Source: Spirulina subsalsa FACHB-351 (GTDB lineage: Bacteria > Cyanobacteriota > Cyanobacteriia > Cyanobacteriales > Spirulinaceae). Taken from it: a stretch of DNA of 64,000 bases. The notes under the pieces are model-generated. The model was not told the DNA's origin, searched no databases, and was given only the letters and a program-made list of their open reading frames with translations. A program made the position numbers and the translations under genes. The stretch spans positions 1-64,000 of the forward strand of contig NZ_JAIHOM010000009.1 of assembly GCF_026130165.1 (NCBI RefSeq), in the 5' to 3' direction. Positions 35,168 to 36,618 of this stretch are shown one piece after another (within the stretch, counting starts at the first letter, position 1; every line of letters begins with the position of its first letter).

Positions 35168-35346
35168 TAGGGAGAGGGGGAGCAGGGGAGCAGGGGAGCA
35201 GGGGAGCAGTAATAGGGAATTGATAATTGACAATTGTTTCCGATTCCCGATTCCACTTCGACTAAGCTCAGTGACCACCGACTCCCGACTCCCGACTCCC
35301 GAATATCTCCGGATTCCCGATTGCCCGAGTTATTCACCAAGCCCTA
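35168..35346. mobile_element. MITE-like element with GGGCTTG...GAATAACT end, between purF and the caspase-like gene
   Basis: TA-GGG at the left (35168-35172) and AGTTATTCACCAAGCCC-TA at the right (to 35346) bracket 175 bp with no gene. The interior holds four GGGGAGCA-type units, AATTGATAATTGACAATT and three CGACTCC units. The right end matches the inverted terminus AGGGCTTGCTGAATAACT seen at 46839 and 49359; the left terminus is degenerate. The flanking TA pair suggests a TA target duplication, as for Tc1/IS630-type movement. The element edge provides the G of the TAG stop codon of the gene at 35344. Confidence 0.65.
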
Positions 35347-36618
35347 TCTAATCCTTCCTTTTTCCCAAGATTGGTTTTCACAGTTCAGGAGATGGTCAAT
35401 AAAAGCGATCGCCTCTTGATTAGGAGAAACGCGGATCTGTTGTTCCTTGGCGATATTGAAGATTTCCATTTGTAACCGTTCTAGTAACGTATTGTTTACC
35501 CGAGAAACACGCTGGGTAAACGGCAAACGGTTCAAATTCTCACGGTAAGACCGTTGTAAGTCAAACCCAAAACGATCCGCGATCGCCAAAATCACATACT
35601 CCTGCTCCGGTCGCGCCAAATCCACAAAAGCCTCTAAGGGTTGAGATAGCCACAGGGAACGCTCTTGGGGAGTGACTTGCTCTTGTAACCACACCTCCAA
35701 GGTCGAGACAGGCAAATCCGTTGTTTTAAGATCCACCTTGGCAAAAGCATGGGCTTCTTGGTAAGACACCCGACCATCCCGATCATAATCGGCCGATGCC
35801 ACCGCCTCCCCCAGGCGATTTTTGCCACTTAATCCCGCGAAGAAACTGGAACTATAATCCACATAGTCCGCCTCATTCACCTCGGGACTACACCCCACAG
35901 AAGGACGAGTGCGCACCGTGGCAAAAAAACCACAACGATTATGAGGTGCGATCGCCGCCGTAGAATCTCCCCCCTCATAAATCAAATCGGCAAAAGATCC
36001 CGCAAAACATTGCGCCATCATCGTCACCACAGGCTTTTCAGGCGGCAATTGATCCAACTGTTGCGCCAAATCTTGCACCGAAACCCTTGTATCTTCCCAG
36101 AGAATCAACTCATTGGGTAAACCGTGACCCGTAAAGTAAAAAAAGAGCGGCCGATTGGGTTTCTGTCGTCCTGCCTCCTGTAACCACCGTTTGAGATTCT
36201 CCGGAGTCGAAGCACCCCGCACCTCGGGAATTTCCGGCGATTTAAACAAACTCTGTCCCCGTCCATTGACAAAACGCACCGTTGCCTCGCGACTATTCCC
36301 ACTGGCAAAAAACACATCGGCTGCTTTGGGATTAAAGCCTAAATGGGAGAGAATACGCTGAAAATACAACACATTCTTTTCTAAAGCAATCTCAGTATTA
36401 TCCCGAGTGCCTCCCCCGGCCATTACTAAAAAATGAGTCGGTTGCGCTGACGAAGATTGACAAAATGAATCCAGTTTAGACCACAGAGGATCACTTTCCA
36501 GTAGAGGACTCCCCCCCAAAAGTAACCCCAACGCACTCCCCACCATTGACTGAATCACTGAAACCATACACCACTTACCAGATAAACTTACAAATAAGCT
36601 ACCCCTATAAGCTATCAT
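35344..36618 (-). CDS. Legumain/caspase-like (C13/C14 type) protein with EF-hand
   Basis: A 424-residue protein with a hydrophobic N-terminal segment (about 18-40, probable signal peptide; an alternative start is M18). A caspase-fold core carries both dyad residues: FFYFTGHGLPNE (H165) and MMAQCFAGSFADLIY (C204), spaced as in legumain-type peptidases, with LVMAGGG at the first strand. DYDRDGRVSYQE (277-288) is a canonical 12-residue EF-hand calcium loop (D277, D279, D281, E288). It probably acts outside the cytoplasmic membrane as a calcium-responsive cysteine peptidase; substrate unknown. Its stop codon is formed at the edge of the MITE-like element at 35168. Start choice is uncertain because neither ATG has a strong ribosome-binding site. 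Confidence 0.75.
   Translation of the reverse strand: MIAYRGSLFVSLSGKWCMVSVIQSMVGSALGLLLGGSPLLESDPLWSKLDSFCQSSSAQPTHFLVMAGGGTRDNTEIALEKNVLYFQRILSHLGFNPKAADVFFASGNSREATVRFVNGRGQSLFKSPEIPEVRGASTPENLKRWLQEAGRQKPNRPLFFYFTGHGLPNELILWEDTRVSVQDLAQQLDQLPPEKPVVTMMAQCFAGSFADLIYEGGDSTAAIAPHNRCGFFATVRTRPSVGCSPEVNEADYVDYSSSFFAGLSGKNRLGEAVASADYDRDGRVSYQEAHAFAKVDLKTTDLPVSTLEVWLQEQVTPQERSLWLSQPLEAFVDLARPEQEYVILAIADRFGFDLQRSYRENLNRLPFTQRVSRVNNTLLERLQMEIFNIAKEQQIRVSPNQEAIAFIDHLLNCENQSWEKGRIR

Follow-up and report, generated by a model that had tools for sequence, protein, structure and literature searches.

A minus-strand ORF of 424 residues with an ATG start (Table 1), present as a single copy in the 5.26 Mb genome of the cyanobacterium Spirulina subsalsa FACHB-351, encodes a protein that we are modestly inclined to regard as an exported clan CD cysteine endopeptidase (in the periplasm, on a lipid anchor or secreted), with a Ca2+-binding EF loop and of a type between the legumain (C13) and caspase (C14) families. 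In the window, by which we mean the whole 64,000-nucleotide stretch of DNA analyzed, the gene lies between two plus-strand genes, one of purF type upstream and one with an EVE domain downstream. The motifs read in the first-pass annotation, namely TGHG with H165, AQCFAGSF with C204 and an EF loop with D277, D279, D281 and E288, were all confirmed in the ORF and are kept in the family. H165 and C204, both intact in the window protein, would constitute the catalytic dyad.

Table 1. Coordinates in the window of the gene and its predicted parts, and homologous loci paired with an M28 peptidase gene
Feature	Position	Strand	Remarks
Whole gene, clan CD cysteine peptidase homolog	35344..36618	-	424 aa; 63 related loci
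Residues 1-57, leader and linker with C53	36448..36618	-	Model confidence low; start at M1 or M18 uncertain
Residues 58-300, predicted caspase/haemoglobinase-fold core with EF loop	35719..36447	-	AlphaFold model, structure matches
TGHG, putative catalytic H165	36121..36132	-	Invariant, 52/52
MAQCFAGSF, putative catalytic C204	35992..36018	-	Invariant, 52/52; residue two before Cys is Ala
EF-hand loop DYDRDGRVSYQE, residues 277-288, then helix 286-295	35755..35790	-	Conservation, model, alignment with EACC1-caspase loop
Residues 297-414, family-specific helical insert	35377..35730	-	Model; without solved-structure match
Residues 415-424, short terminal strand after conserved C413-E414	35347..35376	-	Full-length model; position of legumain's last aligned part
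Loci with upstream M28 gene			L003, L010, L011, L012, L022, L023, L025, L028, L030, L044, L050, L053, L059

Predicted fold and relation to known peptidase families

An AlphaFold (AF2) model built on 36 homologs (pLDDT 86, pTM 0.83) is confident from residue 58 on, with a dip near 241-250. Legumain was the best Foldseek match of this model (E 4e-9), and VIA-align gave Z-scores of 20.5 for legumain over 227 residues, 19.1 for GPI transamidase, 18.9 for plant metacaspases (metacaspase-4) and 17.3 for caspase-8. H165 and C204 end the model strands 158-167 and 197-202, which gives the arrangement typical of clan CD, a caspase/haemoglobinase alpha/beta fold with His-Gly and Cys after adjacent strands; on the evidence of the model, then, the window protein is a member of this fold. 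The first-pass annotation had called for structure prediction of a caspase/legumain-like protein, and the core it expected is present in the model. The structural alignment extends to residue 422 of the model and residue 287 of legumain, and the only model strand after 228-232 is 417-419. Hence the EF loop and the helices that follow it, as judged from aligned ranges rather than residue by residue, appear to be insertions inside the fold ahead of its last strand, and the loop does not appear to be an added domain. Residues 297-414 were again confidently modeled when folded alone, and this C-terminal helical part found no convincing match among solved structures (best Z 3.5; Foldseek E above 1). 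The region from about 300 to 424, earlier called unrecognized, indeed lacks a structural match; it is nevertheless modeled not as a loose tail but as a helical insert ending in a short strand.

All Pfam and NCBIfam matches of the window protein are below threshold: 19.0 bits for C13 (PF01650; cut-off 22.8), 15.5 for C25, 11.3 for the EF-hand and 16.5 for EACC1-associated caspases (NF047832; cut-off 140), and there was no match to C14 (PF00656) at E 1. Elsewhere in the family one member reaches 27.2 bits with PF01650, over 65 residues only, and 21 of 36 members give weak PF00656 matches (best E 5.1e-5), while two other genes of the host genome pass the PF00656 cut-off. The predicted folds together with the weak Pfam scores are what suggest a relation to C13. 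Sequence searches of solved structures, with the single sequence or a profile, returned no significant match, and a literature search turned up no account of a legumain-like protein with an EF-hand, nor of C13 peptidases in cyanobacteria. Annotation will probably overlook the family, as the window protein lies under the cut-offs of both Pfam and NCBIfam. PADLOC produced a weak match to 'caspase' (E 0.015), from which no defense system was assigned.

Conservation, distribution and active site

A scan of genome contigs recovered 63 related loci, nearly all of them cyanobacterial, with two Archangium and two planctomycete contigs in addition. H165, C204, D277 and E288 are identical in all 52 intact homologs, which come from three phyla (cyanobacteria, Archangium, planctomycetes); position 279 is N or D, and position 281 has D in 50 sequences and N in the other 2. 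Strong conservation also marks an EKNxxYFQ helix, RCGFFAT, GCxPEVNEADYxDYSSSFF and an EAH immediately after the EF loop. The spread is patchy, with about a dozen full-length matches in 386 cyanobacterial genomes, members in 11 of the 59 nearest relatives (the one sampled congener among them) and in 11 of 145 genomes of the myxobacterial order, and no homolog in the plasmid collection searched. By these sequence searches the family is found mainly in cyanobacteria and myxobacteria and is not named by the models searched. Stops or frame breaks fall within the matched stretch of eight homologs (L004, L007, L013, L021, L039, L041, L045 and L064), which could be pseudogenes, assembly errors or cases in which the end of the match includes the stop codon. 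Nearly all aligned homologs carry an Asn-rich loop, N...NNxLxLW, just after the catalytic His; it is absent from the window protein, which is about nine residues shorter after TGHG (window 36091-36120).

Every aligned row has Ala, Ser or Val at the second position before the catalytic Cys, with Gln directly preceding the Cys, and the window protein accordingly reads AQC, neither the DxC of C14, mostly seen in the C14 genes sampled, nor a sequence with the C13 Glu two before the Cys. An Asp at this place in orthocaspases and metacaspases goes with basic P1 specificity, and the Glu of legumain is part of its Asn S1 pocket. With Ala, Ser or Val in place of the acidic S1 residue, there is no ground for presuming a preference for either Arg/Lys or Asn; E249, D251 and D254, which are acidic and conserved, might form part of a pocket.

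An EF loop shared with EACC1-type caspases

The EF loop is a 12-residue stretch that satisfies the EF-hand loop pattern, with ligands at positions 1, 3, 5 and 12, Gly at 6 and a hydrophobic residue at 8; a comparable pattern arose in 59 of 100,000 shuffles of the protein. Conservation decides that the loop claimed earlier is real: its first and last positions, D277 and E288, never vary in the family. A helix-loop-helix was not found: the loop is single and unpaired, and the helix ahead of it stops at residue 264, 12 residues short of the loop. The absence of a partner loop, together with an EF-hand (PF00036) score well short of the 25.4-bit cut-off, would fit a motif that does not bind calcium, or a protein that is a non-catalytic scaffold; few residues, however, are conserved as strictly as those at the metal-ligand positions and those of the dyad, and we hold this to be very improbable.

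Of the cyanobacterial EACC1-type caspase loci above cut-off, 19 allowed the catalytic Cys to be placed, and 16 of these carry a comparable loop, DxDxDG...E, usually 63-65 residues after that Cys. In a profile alignment of our family with the EACC1-type caspases (hhalign probability 96.9%, E 2e-10) H falls on H, C on C and loop on loop, and an EF-type loop was seen in 1 of 32 sampled ordinary C14 genes of relatives. The simplest reading of these alignments is that the loop was inherited within one branch of the bacterial relatives of caspases. The match identifies it as a shared element and not a unique switch; in this branch it would brace the following helix. Among the EACC1-type caspases L111-L127 the loop lies in the caspase fold and is nearly always present, a feature on which the literature consulted is silent. 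To our knowledge, the calcium sites of metacaspases are not EF-hands. We found no report of a calcium loop being tested in bacterial caspases, and EF-hand motifs have been described as an extra motif in a few archaeal orthocaspases (PMC6426788).

Probable export and a proposed place for calcium

Most homologs start with a hydrophobic leader, some of them with lipobox-like motifs such as LSSC, LSGC or IASC. Of the cysteines other than the catalytic one, C229, C243 and C413 are each present in 50-52 of the 52 sequences. Eighteen sequences lack an N-terminal Cys, and 11 of these have a Cys at position 156 that occurs nowhere else; this suggests that the N-terminal Cys and C156 are alternative partners for one disulfide, a pattern that could partly follow phylogeny. 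Such alternation indicates an oxidizing, extracytoplasmic location, and the family is, on these sequence features, probably exported. The earlier judgment that the protein is probably exported is therefore upheld for the family by leaders, lipoboxes and conserved cysteines. For the window protein itself, which has C53, C229, C243 and C413, the support is weaker, its leader being only weakly hydrophobic.

Ca2+ is normally high outside the cytoplasm and low inside it, and on this basis we propose that it serves as a cofactor acquired after export. In this mechanism the EF loop would lie between the helix after strand 5 and the next helix and bind one Ca2+, which would pin the following helix, and thereby the nearby acidic loop 243-254, into the active fold. 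AlphaFold models themselves hold no ions. The ion would act in folding or as a permissive cofactor, confining activity to the time after export, rather than as a signaling switch, and the likely job of the enzyme would be limited proteolysis of envelope or extracellular proteins.

The first-pass annotation had instead seen a calcium switch paralleling that of metacaspases in a protein linked to cell death or stress. In such a scheme Ca2+ influx would activate the protease, which would kill or remodel the cell as plant metacaspases do; the invariance of the EF loop fits it, and so do the Ca2+ activation of metacaspases (PMC5756287) and their structural closeness to the window protein. However, the family probably resides in a Ca2+-rich compartment, where the Ca2+ around an exported protein would as a rule be constantly high, the loop is common to other bacterial caspases, and orthocaspases are described as Ca2+-independent (PMC5756287). 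There are also no stress or death genes nearby, and the link to death or stress found no supporting evidence. The indications of export and the loop common to EACC1 caspases make a structural or permissive role for Ca2+ likelier than a cytosolic switch or a part in cell death, and we consider the death or stress protease distinctly unlikely.

Gene neighborhoods and myxobacterial relatives

That the gene stands alone between purF and the EVE-domain gene, as noted earlier, holds for the window but not for the family. In 13 other cyanobacterial loci (Table 1) the gene is immediately preceded, on its own strand and in most cases at a distance of no more than about 200 bases, by a gene for an M28 peptidase (119 bits in L025). 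Mapped onto the tree, the pairing needs about six changes, of which well-supported branches force at least three; it therefore extends beyond a single close clade. Among the neighbor clusters examined, the M28 peptidase gene was the only one to recur beside the gene in several lineages; an M28 query gave no match in the host's own genome at the limit used. A large cluster of neighboring minus-strand ORFs (17 loci) overlaps the gene itself and was discarded as its antisense reading. These neighborhoods bear on a further reading, in which the protein is a transpeptidase or sorting enzyme that cleaves a signal and attaches the product to a second molecule on the cell surface, in the manner of GPI transamidase and plant asparaginyl ligases. 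GPI transamidase and peptide asparaginyl ligases are indeed among the nearest folds, and an envelope location is probable. Yet fold likeness cannot separate a hydrolase from a ligase, and the clusters hold no conserved sorting-system partner near the gene; we consider this reading very unlikely.

In Archangium, locus L054 (3990-5927, plus strand) ends in an AHH nuclease domain (54.9 bits against a cut-off of 22.3), as does the myxobacterial locus L158 (1342-3000, plus strand; 40.5 bits), and L159 has a similar AHH-like tail. All three share the caspase core and EF loop ahead of the AHH part. A peptidase just upstream of a C-terminal toxin domain, as present in L054 and L158 and not in the window, is a known architecture of autoproteolytic release in which the peptidase is caspase-like (PMC3482391). 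This raises the possibility that the family first cut itself or a fused cargo after export, and that the stand-alone cyanobacterial members process themselves or release a partner. Against this, the cyanobacterial members have no extra C-terminal domain and usually end 6-12 residues past the conserved C-E motif, no evident same-strand immunity gene follows L054, and in both L158 and L159 the AHH motif has HR in place of the required HH. We regard this releasing-peptidase reading as unlikely.

Bringing these strands together, one may speculate, with considerable reserve, that this is a distinct clan CD family outside the C13, C14 and C25 models, whose in-fold Ca2+ loop, ancient and common to EACC1-type caspases, couples activation to export into a Ca2+-rich setting, with myxobacterial members releasing an exported nuclease and cyanobacterial ones processing surface proteins. 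Discussion of calcium control among caspase relatives usually centers on the metacaspases of eukaryotes. The strict retention of an in-fold calcium loop, both in a probably exported family and in EACC1-type caspases, means that the description of bacterial orthocaspases as Ca2+-independent needs testing. It is mainly the sharing of the loop with other bacterial caspases that gives the family its moderate interest.

Comparison with known systems

The caspase-like releasing peptidases of polymorphic toxins (PMC3482391) are of an exported clan CD type, as our family is predicted to be, and have their nearest parallel in the myxobacterial homologs with an AHH domain, unlike the window protein and the other cyanobacterial members, which are without a toxin domain. 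Cyanobacterial orthocaspases and metacaspases (C14, PF00656) share the caspase fold and the His-Cys dyad with the window protein, but differ from its family in their Asp-x-Cys signature and in the rarity of the EF loop. Legumain (C13) and GPI transamidase resemble the family in fold, in the places of His and Cys and in extracytoplasmic setting, which is predicted here. Identity to them is about 14%; legumain has Glu-Ala-Cys where the family has Ala-Gln-Cys and, as far as we know, no EF loop, and the helical insert before the last strand and the C-terminal domain of the window family are unlike theirs. The EACC1-associated caspases (NF047832, C14-like) differ in having Asp two before the catalytic Cys and, judged from the aligned stretch, in having no such helical insert. 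Nonetheless, these caspases, which are abundant in the same phylum as the window gene, carry the dyad and the in-fold DxDxDG loop in the same columns as the family described here.
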